A stretch of DNA of 64,000 nucleotides from a virus. Where the stretch lies: the IMG/VR virus record IMGVR_UViG_3300013132_005788, positions 1-64,000 of that record; one strand, 5' to 3'. Of this stretch, positions 26,208 to 62,225 are shown piece after piece. The translations under genes and the position numbers were made by a program. The notes beneath the pieces were generated by a model. The model was not told the origin of the DNA, searched no databases, and was given only the letters and a program-made list of their open reading frames with translations. Each line of letters starts with the position of its first letter. Positions within the stretch are counted from its first letter, which is position 1.

Positions 26208-26429
26208 ATGGAAAATCTACAGAAAGACTGGGATAAAATCGTAGAAAGGGAAGGAGGTAAACAACCGATAAAATTTCCTATTCTAATGGACAAACCAGAT
26301 CTTTCTGGGATTGATTTAAAATTTGAAAATTTTAGTTCTTCCCCATCTATAAATAATACACCTAAGGTTGTTAGAACTGAAGAGGTGATTTTAAAAAAGA
26401 ATAAAAGGAAATGCAGCAGCCTAATGTAG
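26208..26429 (+). CDS. Small hypothetical protein
   Basis: Start at ATG 26208 (MENLQKDWDKIVEREGG), just after the primase stop, rather than an upstream in-frame ATG inside the primase gene. The 73-residue product has a helical N-terminus, a Ser/Pro-rich middle and a basic end (ILKKNKRKC). It overlaps the UvsY-like gene by 19 nt, so the two are translationally coupled. Not recognised; it may be a small partner of the recombination proteins. Confidence 0.55.
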   Translation: MENLQKDWDKIVEREGGKQPIKFPILMDKPDLSGIDLKFENFSSSPSINNTPKVVRTEEVILKKNKRKCSSLM

Positions 26430-26878
26430 ATGAACAGAAGCAGGATTTTTCATCCATATTCTCCACAGAGAGGGAGGAATGGAAGGAAAAGATCCGGGGG
26501 CTTTCAATCAGATCTAGAAACATCAGGGAACTTGGAGAAGTCCAAATAGAATTATATTCAAGTAGACAGATGCTTTTAGAATACGCATATAAACTTGGCC
26601 AGATTTTAATAAAACTCAATACGAGATACCGAAGAGATAGAGGTGATAGAATGAAGTTTTATTCGGAAATGTCTCAGGTTAAGTATGGATCAAATGAAAA
26701 AACCCCTCTAATAGAGGCGGATCTATCAGAGCTTAAAGAAAGAATAGATCTGGTAGATAATCATATGGCATATATGAATGAAACGATTAAAACCGTTGAT
26801 CATTTCCTATATGGCGTCAAAAGCCGAATTGCACTGGAAGAATATATGAGATCCGGAGCAGTTAAAAGCGGCTACTAA
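26411..26878 (+). CDS. uvsY: UvsY-like recombination mediator
   Basis: 155 residues (T4 UvsY is 137), all-helical. Similarity to UvsY is seen in layout: a helix with LYSSRQMLLEYAYKLGQILIKL, then RRDRGDRMKFYSE (T4 has LDYYSGRGDGDEF in this area), then a long C-terminal helix DLVDNHMAYMNETIKTVDHFLYGVKSR with EEYMRSG (T4: FCSGALDAIKSRGFAIKHIQDMRAFEAG). UvsY loads the RecA-like UvsX onto gp32-coated ssDNA. Placement directly before uvsW mirrors T4, where these genes are close. No UvsX is present in the window. Sequence similarity is weak, context is strong. Confidence 0.6.
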   Translation: MQQPNVDEQKQDFSSIFSTEREEWKEKIRGLSIRSRNIRELGEVQIELYSSRQMLLEYAYKLGQILIKLNTRYRRDRGDRMKFYSEMSQVKYGSNEKTPLIEADLSELKERIDLVDNHMAYMNETIKTVDHFLYGVKSRIALEEYMRSGAVKSGY

Positions 26879-26891
26879 ATAATCAATATGA

Positions 26892-28418
26892 ATGGTCAGA
26901 TTAGTAGCAAGTGAAGATTTAAAATGGCTTACGATAGTGGATTATGACGAGGAATTCGAAAGGAAACAGCTTGAACTCTCTCTAACAAGAAAAATACACA
27001 ATCACTTTTTTCATCCCTTGGTTAAAAAGAAGCATTGGGATGGAGCTATATGCTTTATAGATAAAAGACTCCCTGTATGGAGAATCCCAATGGGACTGTG
27101 GAGTGAGGTCTATTCTATAGGGGAAAAGTACAAAATTGATATATCGATCGAAGGATTAGATCTCTTGATTGACACCGGGATTTCATTAGATGATTTTACT
27201 CTGTGGTGCAATGAATTCTTCAAGGATAAAAAATTCAAGCCAAGAGACTATCAGATAGAATCAGCATGGAAGATCATCAGATTTAAACTAAGCGTTTCTG
27301 AGGTTGCAACATCATCAGGCAAGACTCTTATAGCATTTATGGTTCTAGCATACCTCAAAAAGGTTCACGGGATTAAAAAATTCTTAATGGTGGTTCCCAA
27401 CGCAAACCTCATCATGCAGGGAAGCGAGGATTTTGAGGAATATGGATTGGATGAGCTCGAAGACTGCGAATTACAGCAGATTCACGGGGGAAACAAGAAG
27501 AAGATTTCTTCTGGATTAATGATTGGAACATATCAGTCGTTGGTCAAGATGGAGCCTGAATTTTTTGATGATATTGAGGCTGTTTTTGTGGATGAGTGTC
27601 ATCAATCACATTCACAATCAATTAAAAAAGTTGTGTCTCTCTGCAATGATGCTAAGTGGAGATTTGGCCTTTCCGGAACCCTGGCCAATAAGGGAACAGC
27701 AGAATACCTTACCATCCAGCAATTCCTGGGTCCCTTGGTGATGGAGATTTCCCCTAAATTTCTTTTTGATAACAATTACGCCACCCCGGTTTCCATTAAG
27801 ATAGTCAAGATGGACTGGCTGGATCCCGAGATAAAAGAAAAGCTCTCAAGTCTGAAAGAAAACAAGGAAGAGATGGAAGGAAACGAGATCTTCAATATTG
27901 AGAGAAAGCTCGTGGTTTCCTCTGATAAAAGACTTAAATATATCCTTGATTTTATCTGCAAAGTTTCCAAGAATTCTCTCGTGTTGTTTCAGTCTGTTGG
28001 TGAAGGGTACGGAAAAAGAATCTATGACGGTATCAGGGAAATCACTGCAGACAAGGAGGTCTATTATATAGACGGCGACACACACACGGAACTGAGGGAC
28101 TATTTTATAAATAAGATGGAGGAGGGAACTAATAAGATTCTTGTGGCATCTTTTGGAACGCTATCAACCGGAATCTCTATTAAGAATATACATAACATTT
28201 TTCTAACTGAATCCTACAAATCAGAGATTATCATAAAACAAACATTGGGTAGGGGAATGAGACTTTTCGAAGGAAAGGATAAGGTTATAGTAATAGATTT
28301 TGTTGACGATTTTTCTTTCAACGGGAAAGCCAATTATCTTCTCAAGCATTCCCAAGAAAGAGTGGAAATATACAAGAGAGAACACTTTGAATACAGAACA
28401 TATGAAGTTAAACTTTAG
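26892..28418 (+). CDS. uvsW: ATP-dependent DNA/RNA helicase UvsW
   Basis: 508 residues, as in T4 UvsW (about 503). An N-terminal UvsW-type DNA-binding domain (SLTRKIHNHFFHPLVKKKHW) precedes the SF2 core: FKPRDYQIESAW (Q-motif region), Walker A ATSSGKTLIAF, Walker B VDECH, FGLSGTL (motif III), and motif VI IIIKQTLGRGMRLFEGKD. UvsW remodels R-loops and branched DNA and shifts T4 from origin- to recombination-dependent replication. ATG is 13 nt after the mediator gene. Assignment is firm. Confidence 0.9.
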   Translation: MVRLVASEDLKWLTIVDYDEEFERKQLELSLTRKIHNHFFHPLVKKKHWDGAICFIDKRLPVWRIPMGLWSEVYSIGEKYKIDISIEGLDLLIDTGISLDDFTLWCNEFFKDKKFKPRDYQIESAWKIIRFKLSVSEVATSSGKTLIAFMVLAYLKKVHGIKKFLMVVPNANLIMQGSEDFEEYGLDELEDCELQQIHGGNKKKISSGLMIGTYQSLVKMEPEFFDDIEAVFVDECHQSHSQSIKKVVSLCNDAKWRFGLSGTLANKGTAEYLTIQQFLGPLVMEISPKFLFDNNYATPVSIKIVKMDWLDPEIKEKLSSLKENKEEMEGNEIFNIERKLVVSSDKRLKYILDFICKVSKNSLVLFQSVGEGYGKRIYDGIREITADKEVYYIDGDTHTELRDYFINKMEEGTNKILVASFGTLSTGISIKNIHNIFLTESYKSEIIIKQTLGRGMRLFEGKDKVIVIDFVDDFSFNGKANYLLKHSQERVEIYKREHFEYRTYEVKL

Positions 28419-30296: not shown

Positions 30297-32246
30297 ATGG
30301 CTGGAATTAATCAATTATCTGATATTTATAAGAAAAAAGGTAAAGAGTTTGTTGATAAACTTTTTAACCAGATAGTAACCGTTAGTGAAAAACTAGACGG
30401 ATCTATTTTTTCATTTGAGAAAAATCTGATTGACGAGGATATCTCTTTCTATAAAAGGGATCAGGATAATCCTATCACCAGGATTGACCGAATATTGATG
30501 TCATACTATGAACGTCCGATAAATTATATCGGATCTCTTTCTCATGATATTAAGAGGCAAATTCCTAATGGATGGAGGTTTGGTATGGAATATTTCTGTG
30601 ATAATAAACCAGTAAATATCGCTTATCAGAGAGAGCCTAAGAATGGGCTTGTTTTAACACATATTATCGTTAAGGATGAACTAGGAAATCCGGTGAGAAC
30701 TATAGTGGAAAAAAAAGAGCTTGATCACTGGGCAGACTTGCTGGAAGTTGAAAGATCTCCTATGATCTTTCAGGGCAGGCTAAACGAGGATCAGAAGTTA
30801 AAAATCCTAGAATACCTATCCACATCATATTTAGATATACTCAAAAAATATAAGACTGATAGCTTTGTTAGGTTCATGGTCTCTATATTGAACCCTGAAC
30901 TTGAAAAAAGTGCCCTTAATGATTCACTGGATTCCCCTATCGAGGGAGTAGTCTTCAGATTTGGTGATTTAGCAGGAACTGGTGAAAGCTATGTTGCTAA
31001 AATAGTAGACCCTGTTTTTTTGGAAATAATTAGAGAGAGAAAAGTAACCTCTAAAGATAATCTCCCAAATGACATATATTCACTTGCTCTAATAGATGTA
31101 ATGAATTTCGTTCTTGAAAAAGGAGTGGATTCTTTTGAGATCAAAGGAGAAGAACCCGAGTCAAGATACATTAGTTTTGTCTTTGATGTTTTCCTTAAAT
31201 TTGTTGATCTGCACGGAGACAAATACAAAGGAGTAGATTTTAACGAACCGGAATATTTCAAGAGAGAAGAATTCAAGATCAATAAAGAACTTATTTTAGA
31301 TCAGGATATTAGAGAAAAAATAGAAGAAGACGAGAGTTACGAAACTCTTCTACAGATCCTTCTATCCGCCTTTAGAAAATTAAAGAAAAAAGCACATGGG
31401 TTCTTCACCGAGGGGGTAGTTGAGCAATTTAATCTATTAATCAGAGATATTGCAGATTATATAAATGCTAGAAAAGCAGAGCCTGTCCAAGAATCGGGGA
31501 TTCCAACTTTTGTTCAATTTAGAAAAAGCTCTGCTGTTTTCTCCCCTATCAACGAGAGTGAAAATGAGCCAGATGAAACAACTGAATCTGATGAAGATGA
31601 TGAAAATACTGGCGCAAAAGAAGACGAAAAAACCAATGAGTTTTTTGCTTATGATGATTTTAAGAAGGTAATTAAAACTCCAAAAGAAAAAAGAAAATCC
31701 AAGAAGTTAAACGAAAACGCAGAGAAAGTCAATCTTATCATAGGAAAATTCCAGCCGTTTAGCAATGGTCATTTAAAGATGGCTATGAGAGCCAAGAAAG
31801 AAAATGGATATCCTAGCGTACTTTGTGTGCACCATCCAGGGACAACATCTAAAAAATACCCATTTAGTCAGGAAACTGTTGAGAAAATGCTCCTCGGGAT
31901 TAAGGAAGAGCACTCCGATATTATCAGGGAATCATATGTGATTAATAAAGATTTTTTGGATGAGGTGTTTGAAAATCTTCCCGAAACTTTCTTCCCAGTC
32001 AGCATATGTGTGGGTGAAAAAAATTATTCAAATCTATATCTTCAGAGAGATTGGTCCAAGAATAACGGAACCTTAATCAATGAAGAAATTAAGCTATTTA
32101 AAACCCCGACCTGGAATTCAGGTAGAGATATCAGAGATTTCATCAGGAATGAAAACTTTTCACAATTCAAAAAATCCGTACCTAAAAGTGTAGGCCTTTT
32201 GTATAATCAATTTGTTACGGAAATTAGGGAAACCGGGGATATATAA
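30297..32246 (+). CDS. Fusion: ligase-like nucleotidyltransferase + NMNAT-like adenylyltransferase
   Basis: 649 residues in two parts. Residues 1-~240 carry covalent nucleotidyltransferase motifs: EKLDGS (I, Lys32), WRFGMEYF (III-like, ~93-100), IEGVVFRFG (IV, ~215-223) and VAKIVDP (V, Lys235), as in RNA/DNA ligases. A helical region (~240-400) and an acidic linker (~421-449) follow. Residues ~475-649 match NadM/NadR-type cytidylyltransferases: GKFQPFSNGH at 483-492 (the usual H/TxGH, here SNGH) and SGRDIRDFI at 608-616. The first half would seal nucleic acid ends through a Lys-AMP intermediate; the second would adenylylate NMN or a related substrate. Substrates are inferred. Confidence 0.75.
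   Translation: MAGINQLSDIYKKKGKEFVDKLFNQIVTVSEKLDGSIFSFEKNLIDEDISFYKRDQDNPITRIDRILMSYYERPINYIGSLSHDIKRQIPNGWRFGMEYFCDNKPVNIAYQREPKNGLVLTHIIVKDELGNPVRTIVEKKELDHWADLLEVERSPMIFQGRLNEDQKLKILEYLSTSYLDILKKYKTDSFVRFMVSILNPELEKSALNDSLDSPIEGVVFRFGDLAGTGESYVAKIVDPVFLEIIRERKVTSKDNLPNDIYSLALIDVMNFVLEKGVDSFEIKGEEPESRYISFVFDVFLKFVDLHGDKYKGVDFNEPEYFKREEFKINKELILDQDIREKIEEDESYETLLQILLSAFRKLKKKAHGFFTEGVVEQFNLLIRDIADYINARKAEPVQESGIPTFVQFRKSSAVFSPINESENEPDETTESDEDDENTGAKEDEKTNEFFAYDDFKKVIKTPKEKRKSKKLNENAEKVNLIIGKFQPFSNGHLKMAMRAKKENGYPSVLCVHHPGTTSKKYPFSQETVEKMLLGIKEEHSDIIRESYVINKDFLDEVFENLPETFFPVSICVGEKNYSNLYLQRDWSKNNGTLINEEIKLFKTPTWNSGRDIRDFIRNENFSQFKKSVPKSVGLLYNQFVTEIRETGDI
32238..32245 (+). promoter_or_regulatory. 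GATATATA late-promoter-like octamer
   Basis: Exact octamer overlapping the end of the ligase fusion gene and 18 nt before the metallopeptidase ATG; it would start the peptidase/VWA/MoxR transcript. Confidence 0.5.
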
Positions 32247-32263: not shown

Positions 32264-33061
32264 ATGCAGGGAAAAAGAATTGCTTCCTGGAATGATTTCC
32301 AGCTTTTTGAACAAGTCTATCGGGACTTGGAAGACGACAATCAAAAAATTTCACAAGAAGCTTTTAGAAAAATAAGATCCGCTTGTTTTAAAGTAATGGG
32401 TCAATATCCTTTTTTTAGAAGCGTACTAAGCAGCCTTATTATAAAGGAAAATAGAAATCTCCGATATAAAACTATGGCGACCGACGGAGCTAGTATACAT
32501 TACGATCCTGGATTTGTACTAGATCAGCCGCTTGATGTGGTAACTTGGGTGATTGTCCATGAAATAATGCACAATGTTCTAAAGCATTTCGATAGAAAAG
32601 AATTAGATGCTGATACTGTAACTTGGAACATGGCAGCGGATTATGCTCTTAATCAGTTAATCACTTATAATAAATCCAACCCCTCTCTTCCTCCAACCAA
32701 AGCTGACTATGAGGCTGCAATGGGAAAGGGAGGATTATTTCCAGGGTGTGGACAAACCAAGGGAGACGACAAATTTGAAAATTTAACAGCCGAACAGATT
32801 TTCAAGATTCTACTTAAAAATCCACCGGTCTGTCCTCAGTGCGGAAAAAATCCTTGTGAGTGTCAGAAGCCTACTCCACCTCCACGTGATCCTGATCCAT
32901 TACAGGTCGGAGATATCATATACGACGAGAAAACGGACGAGTATGGCGTGGTAACTTCTTTTGACGAAGCAACAGGTGAGGTGACTTTGGATCCTATGGA
33001 TAAAGATGCTGTTAGGGAAGAAGTTAAGAGACAGTATGAAGAAAAATACGGAACCGTTTAA
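32264..33061 (+). CDS. DUF2201-like metallopeptidase
   Basis: 265 residues. The zinc-protease motif HEIMH lies in WVIVHEIMHNVLKHFD near residue 100, followed by WNMAADYALNQLI, the pattern of the putative metallopeptidase domain that pairs with VWA domains (DUF2201 type). A small Cys cluster near residue 195 (CPQCGKNPCECQKP) could bind a second zinc. The C-terminal ~50 residues form a small beta domain (DPLQVGDIIYDEKTDEYGVV). In bacteria this domain occurs with VWA and MoxR ATPases, exactly the next two genes here. Family and catalytic motif are clear; the substrate is unknown. Confidence 0.75.
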   Translation: MQGKRIASWNDFQLFEQVYRDLEDDNQKISQEAFRKIRSACFKVMGQYPFFRSVLSSLIIKENRNLRYKTMATDGASIHYDPGFVLDQPLDVVTWVIVHEIMHNVLKHFDRKELDADTVTWNMAADYALNQLITYNKSNPSLPPTKADYEAAMGKGGLFPGCGQTKGDDKFENLTAEQIFKILLKNPPVCPQCGKNPCECQKPTPPPRDPDPLQVGDIIYDEKTDEYGVVTSFDEATGEVTLDPMDKDAVREEVKRQYEEKYGTV

Positions 33062-33078
33062 TAAAATATAAAAGCTGG

Positions 33079-34125
33079 ATGAAAACGAAAATAGATAGAG
33101 TAATCAGAATCAGACTTAAGGATTCTGAAAATAAAGGACCAGGAGATCCCGAAGTTGGAGACCCAAAAACAATATATCTAGAAAAAGATCCTCCTGAGAA
33201 TGGAGATGGCCCTGGCGGAACTGGTGATTTTCCTACAGGCGATAGAGAGGGTGAAGGGGAAGGACAGGGTGGAGGACCTATTCCAAATCCATCGAATACG
33301 TATTCAAGGGATAAGGCAGAATGGGACAGACAGATGGAAGAGGATGTTGATTATGGCAGGGATAAAACCAAAGTTACCTGGGGAGAAGTACTTCCTGCAG
33401 GATCACTTGGTGACACTGACATGGGAAAATCCCAAATATCCTCCAAAATGGATGAATTGGTTCAAAGTGCAATGGCGCAGAATCTGGATAATGACCCAGT
33501 TTCAAAAAGAATCGCCAAAAGATTAGAGGGTCTTAAGGCCCCGATCGTTGATTGGAAATCTGAACTTGCCAGATTTATAGAAAAAATTGTAACCAAGACT
33601 CAATATAAGCTTCCTTCTAGAAGATTTGGTTCCCAAAGAACCGCTCAATATGGATATAAGAGAACAAAAGAGCAGACAGAATGTATTGTGGTTGCCATAG
33701 ACACGTCTGGATCAATATCAGATAAAATGGTTCATAGATTCTTGAGTGAGACCCAGTCAATAGTTCAATCGTTTGATCCAAAAGATCTCTATGTTATATT
33801 TTGTCACACTAGTATATACAGGGTAGACCATTATTTACCTGGTGAAAAAATATCCGATGGAGAGCTAAAGACCGGGGGAACGGAATTTTGGCCACCTTTC
33901 AAATGGGTAGAACAGAATCTTTTGGATGAGGGAATATCTCCTTCCGTTTTCATATATTTTACAGACGGAGAGGCATCTTTCCCAAGTACCGGGGATTACT
34001 CCATAGGTGACTATCTAGACAGAGTTATTTGGGTGGTTCTTGGATTTGGACAAGCCAGTGACGTTCCTGTTCCATGGGGCAACAGAATGGACATAGTTCT
34101 TCCAAATAAATCTTCTGAACTATAA
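33079..34125 (+). CDS. VWA-domain protein (DUF2201 C-terminal type)
   Basis: 348 residues. An N-terminal low-complexity Gly/Asp/Pro/Glu region (~20-85) precedes a helical segment and a von Willebrand A domain with a MIDAS metal site: CIVVAIDTSGSIS (DxSxS, ~residues 210-218), a Thr in KTGGTEFWPP, and an Asp in YFTDGEASF. The DUF2201 family often has metallopeptidase and VWA in one chain; here they are two adjacent genes 17 nt apart. VWA partners usually present substrates to a MoxR ATPase, encoded next. Confidence 0.8.
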   Translation: MKTKIDRVIRIRLKDSENKGPGDPEVGDPKTIYLEKDPPENGDGPGGTGDFPTGDREGEGEGQGGGPIPNPSNTYSRDKAEWDRQMEEDVDYGRDKTKVTWGEVLPAGSLGDTDMGKSQISSKMDELVQSAMAQNLDNDPVSKRIAKRLEGLKAPIVDWKSELARFIEKIVTKTQYKLPSRRFGSQRTAQYGYKRTKEQTECIVVAIDTSGSISDKMVHRFLSETQSIVQSFDPKDLYVIFCHTSIYRVDHYLPGEKISDGELKTGGTEFWPPFKWVEQNLLDEGISPSVFIYFTDGEASFPSTGDYSIGDYLDRVIWVVLGFGQASDVPVPWGNRMDIVLPNKSSEL

Positions 34126-34133
34126 GATATATA
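34126..34133 (+). promoter_or_regulatory. GATATATA late-promoter-like octamer
   Basis: Exact octamer beginning right after the VWA gene's stop codon and 22 nt before the MoxR ATG. It would give the ATPase and the small leader-bearing genes behind it their own late transcript. Confidence 0.55.
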
Positions 34134-34155
34134 GTCTATAAAAAATAAAAAAGAA

Positions 34156-35667
34156 ATGAAGAGAATATCTAATTTTAACCAATTCGTAAACGAATCATAT
34201 CTTTCCAAAGCAATGCAGACAGTTAAGAACTGGGCTTCTTCCTTTATGAAGAGCCTGCAGGATGGATTGGTAAGAATGATTCCGTCCGGTTTAAAAGCAG
34301 GAAAACCTGTTGCAGTCCTATTTGATGGAGAAAAAGGACCTATTGCTGACCAGCTATTAAAATTCTATAAAGGAACTCCATATGCAGAGGCAATAGAAGA
34401 AGCTAAGGTTCCTATGGAGTATCCAAGACAAGACGACGTTTTGAATGTTGATGTTAACGAGCTTAAGAAAATGCTCAAAACCAGACTGAAAGCAGTATTG
34501 AGAGCTAAGGGCGACGAAAAAGAGGTTTTAACTATTAAGCCATTCTTTATATTCGGAGCACCTGGAATCGGTAAAACAATGATTGTTGCTCAAGTACTTG
34601 ATGAGTTGAGCGAAGAATTAGGATTACCACATAGATTAAATCTACACAACGTTGATGGAGAATTTGCTGAGCCAGTCGACTTTGCCGGTGTTCCTTCCGT
34701 TGTTGATGTAGAACAGCCAAGTGCAGAATCCCCTTACGGAAAAGGCGTAACAAGATCAAACGTATCTGTTAACCTCCTTCCTGCTGATAATGGACCGGGA
34801 GATGCAGGCGGTATAATCTTTATTGATGAGATCAACCGTATGGATAAAGAGGTTGTTAAAGTATTCATGAAATTAGCCCAGAGTAGAAGACTTGGGGCAT
34901 CTTATACTATTCCACCAAAATGGTATATTGTAGCTGCTGGTAACAGAAGGGAAGATGATCCATCAACAGTTAAAGACCTTGGGACTGCACTTAGAGATAG
35001 ATTCTCTGTAGTAAACTATGTTCCTTCCACTAAATCATGGATTAAATATGTTTCTAGCGATCCTAAGCTTAAGACCGTGGTTTTACCTGAGTTGGTTGAC
35101 TTCTTTGAATTTAGCGAGGATTACTTCCATAATCTAGATCCTTCTAAAGGCCTAGTAAAATTCCCTACGCCTAGAGCGTGGGTTGATGCTTCTTATGGTC
35201 TTAAGAGAAGAATGGAAGAACTCGAGGAAGAAGGAAAGGGTAGTGTCACTATGGACGAAATTAAAAAGCTGTTCCAACTTGAAGTTGGAGCTGATGCAGC
35301 TCAAGCATTTGTTGATTTCTATAGATTGGTATCAGAGATCAACATTAAGGATGTTGTTAAAGTTTTTGAAGATCCAGAAAACGCACCATTGCCTAAGAAA
35401 ATGTCAGCCGGAGGAAGATCTTATGATCCTGCTCATGCACATGCTTGGATTTGCGCAGTTATTAAGAAAAGTAGAGAATTGCAGATTACCACAAAAGAGG
35501 TTAAGAATTTCACTGATTATTTAATTAGAATGGGATCGCCAGAACTTGGAGCTGCTGCTTTAACATCATTCACAAAATCTCATCCTGAATTAAGAAAAAA
35601 TCCAGAGGCGATAGAAATTCTAGCTGAATTAGCAGAAGAATGGAGCGCTGATGTAGATCTAGAGTAA
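34156..35667 (+). CDS. MoxR-type AAA+ ATPase with capsid-targeting-like leader
   Basis: 503 residues. Walker A is GAPGIGKT (~residue 135), Walker B GIIFIDEINRMD (~225), then a sensor-1-type segment YIVAAGNRRED and an arginine-finger region LRDRFSVVNYVP, as in MoxR/McrB-like AAA+ proteins. MoxR ATPases remodel proteins with a VWA partner; here the VWA and metallopeptidase genes lie just upstream. The N-terminus MKRISNFNQFVNESYLSK matches the nine-protein leader, unusual for an ATPase and possibly meaning that it is packaged in the head. It ends with TAATG, overlapping the next start. Confidence 0.85.
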   Translation: MKRISNFNQFVNESYLSKAMQTVKNWASSFMKSLQDGLVRMIPSGLKAGKPVAVLFDGEKGPIADQLLKFYKGTPYAEAIEEAKVPMEYPRQDDVLNVDVNELKKMLKTRLKAVLRAKGDEKEVLTIKPFFIFGAPGIGKTMIVAQVLDELSEELGLPHRLNLHNVDGEFAEPVDFAGVPSVVDVEQPSAESPYGKGVTRSNVSVNLLPADNGPGDAGGIIFIDEINRMDKEVVKVFMKLAQSRRLGASYTIPPKWYIVAAGNRREDDPSTVKDLGTALRDRFSVVNYVPSTKSWIKYVSSDPKLKTVVLPELVDFFEFSEDYFHNLDPSKGLVKFPTPRAWVDASYGLKRRMEELEEEGKGSVTMDEIKKLFQLEVGADAAQAFVDFYRLVSEINIKDVVKVFEDPENAPLPKKMSAGGRSYDPAHAHAWICAVIKKSRELQITTKEVKNFTDYLIRMGSPELGAAALTSFTKSHPELRKNPEAIEILAELAEEWSADVDLE

Positions 35668-35957
35668 TGGTAAAAATCAAAAGATATACTGAATATGTGG
35701 GAGAGGGCCAGAAAAAAGATTCTGGCCTTTTTTCTACTGTAGATAAGGTAAAGGAAGCTAGAGACAAGCTTCATGAGGCTTCTATGGAATGTAAAAATGA
35801 TCCTAGAATTGATGAGAGCAAGATAATGGAGTGCTACGAGGGTTTGAATAAATACTATGAGAATCTTTCTATGCAGGCTCCATATGTTGACACTATTAAG
35901 TATGGAAAGATTCCAAACACCTCAATGAATATATTGACCAAAAAAGGAGACAGCTAA
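35667..35957 (+). CDS. Small protein with capsid-targeting-like leader
   Basis: 96 residues; its ATG shares the final A of the MoxR stop codon (TAATG), so the two are coupled. The N-terminus MVKIKRYTEYVGEGQKK fits the shared leader with Tyr in both aromatic positions. The body is helical (STVDKVKEARDKLHEASMECKN, then ECYEGLNKYYENL). No family recognised. Position suggests a partner or co-packaged protein of the MoxR ATPase. Confidence 0.5.
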   Translation: MVKIKRYTEYVGEGQKKDSGLFSTVDKVKEARDKLHEASMECKNDPRIDESKIMECYEGLNKYYENLSMQAPYVDTIKYGKIPNTSMNILTKKGDS

Positions 35958-35958
35958 G

Positions 35959-36492
35959 ATGAAACACCTAATGTTATTTGAAGATTTCCTATTCGAAGAC
36001 GGATATGGTAAAAACTTTTTCTTCCCTGAGAAGAGAGAAAAAGCAATTTATTATTATTTCAAGATTAACGAGGGAGAGAGCCAGAAAGGATTTATTCTTA
36101 AGATCTCTAAAAACTGCGTTTTAATGACTCCCGAAGGATCAGAAAATTCTTATGGATGCCTTAGAATAGAACCTATTTCTATAGCCACAATGGATGATCA
36201 TTTAGCTAATGAGACGGATTTTAAATTCAGAGAGGATGATATGATAGAGATCGAGGAGGATGAATTTCCTAGAATCTATAAAATTGTCTCCGAAGCAATA
36301 CAGAATTATCTACAAAAGAATCCAAAGGTCACTAAGATATACGATGAGATGCTCCTTAATGTTCCAATGTCAAGAAAGGAATATAAAAACGATGTCGAAG
36401 CCATGATATCTGGGTGGAGCTACGGAAAATGGTCCATTCAAGATGGCCCAGAAAAAAAGATCCTAATATATCAAAAAAGAGATCACGAATAA
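35959..36492 (+). CDS. Unknown protein with capsid-targeting-like leader
   Basis: 177 residues, starting 1 nt after the previous stop. The N-terminus MKHLMLFEDFLFEDGYG is one of the best leader matches (F-x-x-F-L-F-E). The body has a beta segment (QKGFILKISKNCVLMTPEG), an acidic segment (FREDDMIEIEEDEFPRIYK) and a helical C-terminal part. Overlaps the next ATG by one base (TAATG). No family recognised. Confidence 0.5.
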   Translation: MKHLMLFEDFLFEDGYGKNFFFPEKREKAIYYYFKINEGESQKGFILKISKNCVLMTPEGSENSYGCLRIEPISIATMDDHLANETDFKFREDDMIEIEEDEFPRIYKIVSEAIQNYLQKNPKVTKIYDEMLLNVPMSRKEYKNDVEAMISGWSYGKWSIQDGPEKKILIYQKRDHE

Positions 36493-36797
36493 TGTCCCGT
36501 ATTTTAAGTTATAGCGGCTTTATTAATGAATCAAGGATTGCTATTGCTTGGACCGGAAAGAATGAAACTAGGGACTCTATATTGAGTTTTATAGGGGAAA
36601 AGGAAAAGGTCACAATGATAGAGCTTGATGAATTCCTGCTTTCCCTTCCCGAGGAAAAAGGCAAAAAGGCGGATTTCAAATGGATCAAGAGAAACAAACA
36701 TTTAGTCAAAAGACATATAGACGAAAATGGACCCAACTTTTACACTCTAACTTCACTAGGAAAAAGAATTCTTAGATTATCCAGGGTTAATGATTGA
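36492..36797 (+). CDS. Small protein with capsid-targeting-like leader
   Basis: The start is ATG 36492, coupled through TAATG to the previous stop; an earlier in-frame ATG lies inside that gene. The 101-residue product begins MSRILSYSGFINESRIA, matching the leader. The rest looks like a small basic winged-helix-type fold (MIELDEFLLSLPEE, then KWIKRNKHLVKRHIDENG, then FYTLTSLGKRILRL), which would suit DNA binding, though I cannot assign a family. Confidence 0.5.
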   Translation: MSRILSYSGFINESRIAIAWTGKNETRDSILSFIGEKEKVTMIELDEFLLSLPEEKGKKADFKWIKRNKHLVKRHIDENGPNFYTLTSLGKRILRLSRVND

Positions 36798-41139: not shown

Positions 41140-42549
41140 ATGATAATAGATATTGAAAACCAAGGTAATTCTCTTAAGATCTCTCATTATAATGATGAGG
41201 GTGATCTAGAGTTTATGAATCTGGACATTCCCAAGTCCCAAAGATTCATCTGGAGGAAAACTTCAGAGAGCGATAAAAGTAAAGATCCCGTTTGGAGATC
41301 GTGGGACGGATTCCCCGTCAAAAAATCGATGGGTGAAAGATTTGATAAGTATCGGATAGTTGAAATTCTGGAGAGCTTCGACAAGAGTATCACTAAGCCG
41401 CTCTGGGAAACACAGGTTCCCAAGAAATACTTTGTCGATATTGAAACAGAGATCACAGATAACCGGGCGGATTCACTTGATACCGCCCAGGCTAAAAACA
41501 AGATCCTCTCGATTGGTATTGCTTCATCTATGGGAAAGATATTAATTCTGGGTATAGATGATATGCCGAATGAAAAGATTCTAAGCATAGAAAACAGAGT
41601 AAAAGAGCATTTTAAGGGATTCAAGGGTGATTGGACTTTTAACTATCGAAAGTTCGAAAGCGAATTCGATATGATCTATACATTTCTAGCCAAGCTCCTT
41701 CATAAGATGCCACTGGTTACAGGATGGAACTGGTTTGGATATGACTGGCCTTATATTCTGGGAAGATGTAAGAGATTGGGAATCGACCCATCGATTGCTT
41801 CTCCCAGCGGAATACTTCTAGGTAAGAACCAAATACCAATGCATGTGCTCATGGTTGACTACTTGGATATCTACAAGAAATGGGATAGGGTCATTAAGAT
41901 CAGAGAGTCAAATTCCCTTGATTATGTTGCTAATGCTGCACTTGGAGTGAAGAAGATCAAATATGATGGAACTCTGAAGGATCTTTATGAATCGGATTTT
42001 GAAACATATATCTTCTATAACGCAGTCGACTGTGTTCTGCTTCACTATATAGATCAGAAGCTGAACACAATGGCCACATTCTTTAAAATAGCTAATGTAA
42101 GTGGAGTTGAGATCAATCGTGCTCTTTCTCCTGTTTGGACGACGGAAGTTCTTATGCTCAGAAAATTCCTGGCTAGAAATCAGGTCATAGTCTACGAAAG
42201 AAAGGATGATGTGGCTGTTAAATTTGAGGGAGCTTACGTGAAACAACCAGAGAAAGGGATGTATGAATGGATAGCATGTTTTGACTTTGCCTCCCTGTAT
42301 CCCAACACGATGATGCAATGGGGAATATCCCCGGAGATCTTCATTGGAAAAAACATTCAGAATCCACCGGAAGGAGCAATCCACACTTCTTCTGGGGCTT
42401 ATTTTTATAGCAAAAATGGAGAAGAACCCGTTCTAAGAGATGTTCTTAAATCCTTATATGCCCAAAGAAAATCTGCTAAAGGAAAGTACATGGATTGTCA
42501 AAGAGAAATCGAAAAAATTGAAAAACTCATAAAACAAAAATCAAATTAA
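41140..42549 (+). CDS. 43: DNA polymerase family B, N-terminal (exonuclease) half; split gp43-like
   Basis: 469 residues where T4 gp43 has about 898. Proofreading motifs are complete: ExoI FVDIETE (Asp100/Glu102), ExoII WNWFGYDWPYI (Asp202), ExoIII YNAVD (Tyr293/Asp297). The palm's motif A is present (FDFASLYPNT, 381-390), then SLYAQRKSAKGKYMDCQRE and a charged helix, where the chain stops. Missing are the fingers motif B, the DTDS motif C and the thumb, so this chain alone cannot polymerise. The stop falls in the fingers region, as in naturally split family-B enzymes. The second half is not in this window. A downstream gene begins 2 nt later. Confidence 0.87.
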   Translation: MIIDIENQGNSLKISHYNDEGDLEFMNLDIPKSQRFIWRKTSESDKSKDPVWRSWDGFPVKKSMGERFDKYRIVEILESFDKSITKPLWETQVPKKYFVDIETEITDNRADSLDTAQAKNKILSIGIASSMGKILILGIDDMPNEKILSIENRVKEHFKGFKGDWTFNYRKFESEFDMIYTFLAKLLHKMPLVTGWNWFGYDWPYILGRCKRLGIDPSIASPSGILLGKNQIPMHVLMVDYLDIYKKWDRVIKIRESNSLDYVANAALGVKKIKYDGTLKDLYESDFETYIFYNAVDCVLLHYIDQKLNTMATFFKIANVSGVEINRALSPVWTTEVLMLRKFLARNQVIVYERKDDVAVKFEGAYVKQPEKGMYEWIACFDFASLYPNTMMQWGISPEIFIGKNIQNPPEGAIHTSSGAYFYSKNGEEPVLRDVLKSLYAQRKSAKGKYMDCQREIEKIEKLIKQKSN

Positions 42550-57570: not shown

Positions 57571-58296
57571 ATGCTGAAGAGATTAAAAGATTTCGTTTTT
57601 GAGCAAGAAGAGTCGGCTTCGGTCGGTGCTTCAGGTAAGCTCTCAATAAAATGGCTCAAGCCCGACCTAGCAGAGGAAGTTGAGTCATATGACGATGCTG
57701 CAAGGATTGAATTTTACCAGCATAATATAGATATACCCAATAAGGACGTAAGCAAAGTTGCTGCAAGATCAACTAAATTTTATAAATACCTTATTGAGCC
57801 ATTTAAGAAAGGCGAATTAAAAACACTTCCAACCACATCTGATGACGAATTTCAGGTGACTAAAATTCAAAATTTGATGCACTATGAATTCGAAAACATC
57901 TCAGCAGGTGCTTATGGAAGAACATATGCTGATGTGATTAATCAAATGGCGGAGGATCTAAAATCGGGAGGCAGTTTAAATTTGCCGGCCCCGATCGTAA
58001 TTAGATTCATCAACTTTGGCGAAACTAGAAGATCATCAGAGGCAAGTTATTATTTGTTTTCTGGTAACAGAAGAATAAATCTAGCTCTTCATTACGGAAT
58101 ACCCATTAAAGTCTGGGTTGTTGATTTAATTCCATCCAGAAGGGACGTAAGAGAATTTGCAGAAAAATCAGGAATTATGTCTAAAGGATCAGAATCATTT
58201 AAGGAATTTCTGAGAGGCAAAACTGGAAAAGAGACAATCGACGATCTCACTGCAAGAGAAAGATTCAGAGTTATTCAAGGACTCAAGGAAATTTAA
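57571..58296 (+). CDS. ParB/Srx-fold-like protein with capsid-targeting-like leader
   Basis: 241 residues. The N-terminus MLKRLKDFVFEQEESAS is a shortened leader ending Val-Phe-Glu. Residues ~145-195 resemble the ParB-type nuclease/CTPase fold: PAPIVIRFINFG, then YYLFSGNRRINLALHYGIPIKVWVV, containing the G-x-R-R box. Preceding helices (YADVINQMAEDLKSGG) fit as well. ParB-like domains bind CTP or cut DNA. The leader suggests packaging. The fold call is moderate; activity is unknown. Confidence 0.55.
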   Translation: MLKRLKDFVFEQEESASVGASGKLSIKWLKPDLAEEVESYDDAARIEFYQHNIDIPNKDVSKVAARSTKFYKYLIEPFKKGELKTLPTTSDDEFQVTKIQNLMHYEFENISAGAYGRTYADVINQMAEDLKSGGSLNLPAPIVIRFINFGETRRSSEASYYLFSGNRRINLALHYGIPIKVWVVDLIPSRRDVREFAEKSGIMSKGSESFKEFLRGKTGKETIDDLTARERFRVIQGLKEI

Positions 58297-61184: not shown

Positions 61185-62225
61185 TTGAAGAACCTAAAGA
61201 ATTTTTACCAATTTGTAATAGAACAGGAAGATAGTTCCAAGATAGAAACTGATGCTCAAGTTAAGAGCAGAATTGCTAAGGCACTGGTTGGGTCTCTATT
61301 TGGAGCTGATGTTAGTACGGCTGGAGTGGACGCCATGATTGACGATACCAAAGAGACTAAAGGTTCTCTTCCCTACAGAGGATGCAGCAGATCAACTCCA
61401 TATCAGATAAGCAATAAAGAATTGCCAGTTTCATTTTTTTCGGGAGTGATGGATAATCTCCAGAAGAAACAAAATCTAGATTACTCTATGGCATTGGAAG
61501 ACCTTAAGGGTAAAAAATCCATCATAGTTGGGATAAGAAATAAGCTCAGTGTGAAGAAATCTGAAGGAGACGCTTTCTGTGATGTTCTATATTTTATTCC
61601 AGAAAATGCTAATCCAACTGATATGATCTCCCCTTATCAGATCACAACTTGTCCTTCATTGTCATATTACGGCGATAAGCCTCTTTCTGCTTCAGGGACT
61701 GCTATTAAAGCACCAGGTGATTCACTATACATATTGGCAAATCATAAACTTGAGCATGGAACATATAAGATGTTTCTAGAAGGAGAGCCAACAAAATTTT
61801 ATAGATATAATAAGGGAATAAAACAATTCGACACATATAAACCTGGACAGCTTCAGCAGGAATATATAGGTCTTCTGATTCACAGATCATCTTCATCGAA
61901 AGGAGTTTGTGTTGGCCCGTGGTCAGGAGGATGTCAAGTTTTTGATGAAAAGTCTAAATTTGATGAGTTTATTAAAAAAGCTGAAGCCCAATCATCAAAT
62001 CAGGGCAGATTCTATTATGCCTTAATTGAATTGGATTCGATATCTGATGATGATTTTTCCAAACTTTCGAAGGGAGAAGATTTAGTTGCTAGCGCTGAAG
62101 GGACAGATGTAAAGGATCAAGGAGATAAGAAGGAAAAAAGAGCGAAGAAAAAAATTAAAAAAAGCAAGCCGGAAGAAAAGGGATTCGTAGCAAAGACTAA
62201 AGAATTCTTTGGATTCTCTTCTTAA
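61185..62225 (+). CDS. Protein with capsid-targeting-like leader and possible L,D-transpeptidase-like motif
   Basis: 346 residues from a TTG; the leader MKNLKNFYQFVIEQEDS supports this start. The body (~60-290) includes IGLLIHRSSSSKGVCVGPWS followed by GGCQVFDEKSKFDEF. The His ... Ser-x-Gly-Cys spacing recalls the catalytic His/Cys of L,D-transpeptidases and related peptidoglycan enzymes, though it is not exact. The C-terminus is a Lys-rich helix (KKEKRAKKKIKKSKPEEKG), fitting DNA contact in a head. It could be an ejected cell-wall enzyme. The leader is clear, the enzyme call tentative. Confidence 0.5.
   Translation: MKNLKNFYQFVIEQEDSSKIETDAQVKSRIAKALVGSLFGADVSTAGVDAMIDDTKETKGSLPYRGCSRSTPYQISNKELPVSFFSGVMDNLQKKQNLDYSMALEDLKGKKSIIVGIRNKLSVKKSEGDAFCDVLYFIPENANPTDMISPYQITTCPSLSYYGDKPLSASGTAIKAPGDSLYILANHKLEHGTYKMFLEGEPTKFYRYNKGIKQFDTYKPGQLQQEYIGLLIHRSSSSKGVCVGPWSGGCQVFDEKSKFDEFIKKAEAQSSNQGRFYYALIELDSISDDDFSKLSKGEDLVASAEGTDVKDQGDKKEKRAKKKIKKSKPEEKGFVAKTKEFFGFSS

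Follow-up and report, generated by a model that had tools for sequence, protein, structure and literature searches.

Phage T4 encodes an RNA-repair enzyme, RNA ligase 2 (RnlB, gp24.1), without any NMN adenylyltransferase (NMNAT) domain; its gene rnlB lies 3.0 kb from uvsW, on the opposite strand to it, and about 5.3 kb from uvsY. The phage genes of NAD metabolism listed in the accessible parts of two surveys are NadV, NadM and NadR, with Nudix or kinase domains as the NMNAT partners (PMC9503650, PMC7824862). A related adenylyltransferase-like protein, the cyanophage cytidylyltransferase T4-GC190 (PHROG 395), has been detected in the virions of S-SM1 and S-CREM2 (PMC3037559, PMC10665884), although with a warning of possible carry-over (PMC10665884). 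In T4 itself, proteins are directed into the head by the ten N-terminal residues of IPIII, with gp21 cleaving after L/I-x-E (PMC9026906).

The gene analysed here lies in a window of 64,000 nucleotides (the whole stretch of DNA examined) from a virus fragment of 69,328 bases, and encodes an RNA-ligase-type domain and an NMNAT-like domain in a single protein (Table 1). As in phage NadV-NadM/NadR salvage, an NMNAT domain thus occurs in large phages, but the partners described for those systems are NAPRT, Nudix and P-loop kinase, with no RNA ligase among them in the accessible parts of the surveys (PMC9503650, PMC7824862). An open-access keyword search likewise found no ligase-NMNAT fusion in these sources, an absence that is not proof. 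The uncultured Caudovirales phage protein A0A6J5NWC5 (623 aa) is a whole-length structural match with 30% identity, but its UniProt name goes no further than 'cytidyltransferase-like'.

Table 1. Positions in the window of the fusion gene, its parts and two of its neighbours.
Feature	Residues	Position	Strand	Basis or remark
Weakly UvsY-like gene		26411..26878	+	PF11056 E 0.006, under cut-off; in 53/86 loci
UvsW-like helicase		26892..28418	+	PHROG 16 E 5e-72; in 56/86 loci
Ligase-NMNAT fusion gene	649 aa	30297..32246	+	ATG start
RNA-ligase-type nucleotidyltransferase domain	1-247	30297..31037	+	AlphaFold2 pLDDT 90; VIA matches
Motif I, EKLDGS	31-36	30387..30404	+	Candidate nucleophile Lys32, codon 30390-30392
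Motifs IV to V	E216 (IV) to K235 (V)	30942..31001	+	Motif IV IEGVVF, motif V AKIVDP
Helical domain, fold assignment unsure	248-391	31038..31469	+	AlphaFold2
Linker motif VQESGIPTFVQF	397-408	31485..31520	+	Resembles phage capsid-targeting leaders
Disordered acidic linker	422-468	31560..31700	+	pLDDT <50 (AlphaFold2)
NMN-adenylyltransferase-like domain	475-649	31719..32243	+	1f9a match, PF01467, PHROG 395
GKFQPFSNGH nucleotide-binding motif	483-492	31743..31772	+	Sequence
NSGRDIR motif, counterpart of ISGTxxR	607-613	32115..32135	+	Sequence

Domain structure of the fusion protein

The whole protein was modelled by AlphaFold2 with a mean pLDDT of 83 (alignment of 43 related sequences), and residues 1-400 alone with a pLDDT of 90 and a pTM of 0.85 (42 sequences). 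Structure comparison (Foldseek/VIA) matched residues 1-247 to RNA ligases of the Rnl2/NgrRnl/REL1 type over 185-197 residues (6vt9, Z 12.2; 1s68/2hvq, Z 11.9; 1xdn, Z 11.2), whereas DNA ligases reached only Z 7-8. The helical residues that follow are weakly covered, as far as residue ~320-329, by tRNA ligase and archaeal Rnl chains, and the alignments to Rnl2, whose C-terminal domain was sought there, stop short of them (VIA). As in T4 RNA ligase 2, motifs I, R, III, IV and V come in order; besides those in Table 1, K53-R54 and FGMEYF (E98) are present, and in the sequence alignment the ligase residue set of the window copy (K32, R54, E98, E216, K235) is complete. Unlike the T4 enzyme, the fusion has KxDG in motif I, where T4 has H, and one Lys in motif V. 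The direct sequence match between the two is very weak (hhalign probability 2%, E 0.026) and colinear, pairing EKIHGTNF with EKLDGSIF, AKR with YKR and FGEF with MEYF. Pfam RNA_ligase (PF09414) gave the window protein 20.3 bits (E 7e-4), under the cut-off of 27, but exceeded it in the relatives L015 (30.5 bits, E 5e-7) and L022 (39.9 bits, E 6e-10), the latter also matching a PHROG RNA ligase family (E 1.5e-7). Searches of PDB sequences found no match with a profile of alignment A3 and, by phmmer with the single sequence, one chance match in the linker and nothing else.

The C-terminal half is similar in fold to archaeal NMNAT (1f9a: Z 16.6, 151 residues, rmsd 2.1; also 4yp7 and 1m8g), and both Pfam CTP_transf_like (PF01467, over cut-off, E 2.5e-5) and PHROG 395 (E 1e-7) match it. 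With archaeal NMNAT/NadM it shares GxFxPxxxGH and SGxxxR; set against the full GRFxPxHxGH/ISGTxxR signature, it keeps the second His, the Ser and the Arg, but has SNGH instead of HxGH and K484 in place of the first Arg. It also misses the NCBIfam equivalog cut-offs (17.7 bits of 127 for NF002243, 17.5 of 409 for NF003791), and its partner is a ligase, not a Nudix or kinase domain. One relative, L020, carries the canonical GRFQPFHNGH and ISGTDVR and matches the archaeal NMNAT model with E 9e-7. In 11 loci the fusion gene has nearby a different protein with an N-terminal GRFQPFHKGH domain, of 1636 aa in L068:1023-5933, or its kin.

A first-pass annotation, made from the letters alone, had proposed this layout. 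Motifs I, IV and V, SNGH and SGRDIR are all at the residues it claimed, with Lys32 correctly numbered; the linker between the halves is indeed acidic, and in the model it is disordered; and structure prediction assigns the RNA-ligase fold (Z ~12) to one half and the NMNAT fold to the other.

Distribution and architectures

Six huge-phage records in an annotated-phage collection matched, and proteins from five of them were aligned with the window protein (alignment A1). With A1, an IMG/VR scan yielded 179 relatives, of which the best 80 were read, while the window protein alone retrieved none; a GTDB scan with A1 produced 430 pattern matches, with no relative among them. The same fusion recurs among the IMG/VR relatives read: counting that of the window, 27 different fused sequences were read, and the fusion is therefore neither a chance event nor a sequencing join. 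This confirms the RNA-ligase-type and NMNAT-like fusion as real.

Four architectures occur: the ligase-like domain alone (~390-450 aa); ligase plus NMNAT (~560-660 aa); ligase plus NMNAT extended by further C-terminal sequence (L015, L022, L024, L034); and, in L042, L047 and kin, a ligase continued by ~550-690 aa of other sequence, with the NMNAT encoded by a gene of its own behind it. No family matched the additional C-terminal sequences of L024, L034 and L042, and comparison with one another and with a cyanophage 1006-aa neighbour revealed no clear similarity, except among L042/L047/L060. In L042:6001-9210 and its relatives, ~680 aa follow the ligase-like domain, and the separate downstream NMNAT gene carries two targeting-like leaders, one N-terminal and one internal. 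Fused forms stand in both main K-bearing branches of the tree, and the fusion is therefore probably old, splits and losses having come later. The fusion gene is a core gene in a group of large T4-related phages.

Retention and loss of the active sites

All five ligase residues (K32/R54/E98/E216/K235) are present in 16 of 70 sequences, 13 of which belong to the window's clade (n=16). Within this clade E98, E216 and K235 are invariant and K32 and R54 nearly so, at an N-terminal identity to the window protein of 33-57%. Across the family Lys32 is replaced by M (L007/L013), Q (L024/L025 and L032) or N (L002/L036), and all 19 stand-alone huge-phage proteins have D or N there; the tree calls for at least five such changes, and the motif I lysine is not kept family-wide. 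The adenylylated lysine of the first-pass annotation consequently fits the window copy, which has Lys32 and the full set, but does not extend to the family.

The GH motif (second His/Gly) of the NMNAT half has been lost at least four times among the fusions on the tree, with losses in L007/L013 (NNGD), L028/L032 (GI) and L023/L027. Three proteins (L007, L013, L032) have lost both active sites; a test of joint loss on the tree had four independent pairs, too few for statistical power. From the retained residues and the textbook L020, set against the degenerate copies, activity is likely in the window's clade, not certain for the window copy itself and unlikely in several relatives. Lineages in which the lysine or the GH motif has gone must still use the protein for binding or as a scaffold.

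Gene neighbourhood

Our comparison covered 86 loci, many of which end at contig ends. The fusion gene lies 214-4498 bp from the uvsW-like gene in 55 loci, on the same strand in 54 of the 55, whereas in T4 the strands are opposite; a primase, named from reading its sequence and without a Pfam match, is nearby in 40 of the 86. This position near UvsW, within a few kb of uvsW/uvsY as for T4 rnlB, is an argument for descent of the fusion's ligase from an RnlB-like gene; the argument is positional, the direct Rnl2 match being weak.

Several other features of these loci deserve mention. A DUF2201 metallopeptidase, a VWA-like protein and a MoxR-type AAA ATPase stand in a row at window positions 32264-35667, the ATPase with a targeting-like leader, MKRISNFNQFVNE. 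The family B DNA polymerase ORF at 41140-42549 (469 aa) ends within the polymerase domain, which suggests a split gene, as in L002. In many relatives a second KxDG-like protein (EKLDGYALSI; L002:3704-4969) with a targeting-like leader, whose protein cluster occurs in 25 loci, lies upstream of the fusion gene; it has no Pfam match. No tRNA genes were found in the 64-kb window.

Relation to NAD supply

The three largest records searched (374-482 kb relatives) all carry NAPRT (PF04095), far from the fusion gene. Close to NAPRT, G003 encodes a TIGR00482-like protein and a Nudix, G002 a Nudix and a protein whose end is NMNAT-like, and G004 a NadM-like protein; other RNA ligase genes are present in these records as well, and a DNA ligase in two of the three. 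With these separate NMNAT-type and ligase genes, the fusion is not needed there as the only NMNAT or ligase, and the idea that it is the phage's sole enzyme of either kind is ruled out in the large relatives. Neither NAPRT nor a second hit was seen in the 69 kb record, itself an incomplete fragment. In the large relatives L112, L113, L115 and L116, genes for an NMNAT-type protein, Nudix, NAPRT, RNA ligase and DNA ligase are clustered, in L116 together with one for a Sir2-like protein.

The first-pass annotation had further suggested, as possible functions, repair of RNA or DNA ends tied to NAD supply, NAD-capping, or a response to defences that deplete NAD or cut RNA. The repair side of these suggestions has gained ground, from the Rnl2-type fold, a residue set complete here and in most members of the clade, and the uvsW/uvsY position; the NAD side has not, as three relatives have NAPRT with separate adenylyltransferase, CinA-NMNAT or Nudix genes elsewhere. 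NAD supply by the fusion is thus weakly supported.

A leader-like motif in the linker

T4 internal protein I starts MKTFKEF. The window protein starts MAGINQLSDIYKK and has no such N-terminal leader, its TFxEF-type motif being internal; in 62 of 70 relatives a motif of this type comes after the ligase domain. AlphaFold2 predicts a helix at the motif (residues 405-411), and the acidic linker is flanked by I-N-E (418-420) and L-N-E (471-473). The internal position sets the fusion apart from the capsid-targeted internal proteins of T4, whose leader is N-terminal. T4-GC190 is of the same domain family (HMM E 1e-7) and likewise has a capsid-targeting-like leader ahead of the domain, but it is a separate gene with the leader at its N-terminus and no ligase domain, and the virion detection is the cyanophage protein's. 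It and the separate NMNAT genes of the L042 group start MKNLKNIDTFLVE or MKSFxxFLTEA.

Leaders resembling MKxFxxFLxE were found at 13.4% of the N-termini of 808 neighbouring proteins, as against 2.5% of internal windows, with a simple pattern that was picked after examples had been seen. In the window, leaders like MKxxxxFxxFLxE occur at 34156-35667, 35667-35957, 35959-36492, 36414-36797, 57571-58296 and 61185-62225. Such leader-bearing genes suggest that this phage group may have many head-packaged proteins. A T4-type prohead protease is present in 8 of 12 related records, and in L015 the fusion protein is joined to a homologue (E 1e-17) of the product of window gene 35959-36492, one of those that bear a leader. 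The linker of the fusion probably holds a head-targeting signal, and the protein or a cleaved half could therefore be packaged.

Discussion

Our preferred interpretation, held tentatively, is an RnlB-like RNA-repair ligase that carries an NMNAT module and is possibly packaged in the head. The fusion would be the counterpart of T4 RnlB by fold and gene position, joined to an archaeal-type NMNAT-like domain. In the window copy, the ligase half would most likely adenylylate its own Lys32 with ATP and, in the infected cell, seal RNA ends that carry a 5'-phosphate or adenylylate them. For the NMNAT half, binding of ATP/NMN or of NAD is most likely, and it may produce or sense NAD. The virion could take up the whole protein, or a half released by cleavage, and deliver it with the DNA. 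The analysis itself shows both folds, the set of ligase residues, the conservation and gene neighbourhood of the fusion and the repeated loss of active sites; from these we infer ligase and NMNAT activity, packaging and the repair role. Against this interpretation count the changes of Lys32, the weak hhalign match to Rnl2 and the other RNA and DNA ligases of the large relatives, so that the fusion is not the only ligase; the internal placement of the targeting-like motif, in a gene that stands among replication and not head genes; and the SNGH motif without its first His, K484 for Arg and the missed NCBIfam cut-offs.

RNA-end sealing nevertheless remains the best reading, with a non-catalytic role as its main rival. 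The latter, rather less probable in our judgement, supposes a structural or scaffolding protein made from two decaying enzyme folds, which would no longer be catalytic but would bind RNA, DNA, nucleotides or head-core proteins, the residues of the window copy being relics. The occurrence of M, Q, N or D at Lys32 in five lineages, including every stand-alone huge-phage member, points that way, as do the lost GH motifs and the three proteins lacking both sites; these proteins survive, with synteny kept, despite the loss. However, the window's clade retains E98, E216 and K235, and nearly always K32 and R54, at such a sequence divergence that drift would have preserved less.

The other explanations appear weaker. 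A device for NAD supply or against NADases, in which NAD+ rebuilt by the NMNAT half would serve the phage or an RNA-repair step, comparable to NadV/NadM/NadR and with the ligase half as the link to RNA repair, would be in keeping with the NMNAT fold, the canonical L020 and the NAPRT genes of the three large relatives; taken alone we think it improbable, given the separate adenylyltransferase or CinA-NMNAT/Nudix genes beside or near NAPRT and far from the fusion, the degenerate NMNAT motif of many fusions and a 69 kb record (a fragment) without NAPRT. Still less likely is a ligase for DNA repair or recombination that seals nicks at the UvsW/UvsY/primase stage under a regulatory NMNAT domain: UvsW, the UvsY-like gene, primase and DNA polymerase are its neighbours, but its structure is nearer to RNA than to DNA ligases, and true DNA ligases are present in some relatives. 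At the far end of the range, and very improbable, is a virion-delivered enzyme coupling RNA ligation with NAD chemistry, whose NMNAT half (NMN + ATP to NAD, or NAD + pyrophosphate to ATP) would feed or recycle the nucleotides of the ligase, or add NMN to 5'-triphosphate RNA; as infection starts, RNA would then be repaired with NAD as the driver, or NAD-capped after transcription. According to a review, enzymes for post-transcriptional NAD capping are not known (PMC8131947).

In the accessible parts of the surveys on NAD and RNA-repair genes of phages, this combination of domains is not described. An active fusion would unite RNA repair and NAD chemistry in a single protein, and a packaged one would help to account for the recurrent NMNAT-like proteins in phage virions. 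Finally, the repeated and lineage-specific loss of active sites provides natural variants with which catalytic and structural roles can be tested directly.
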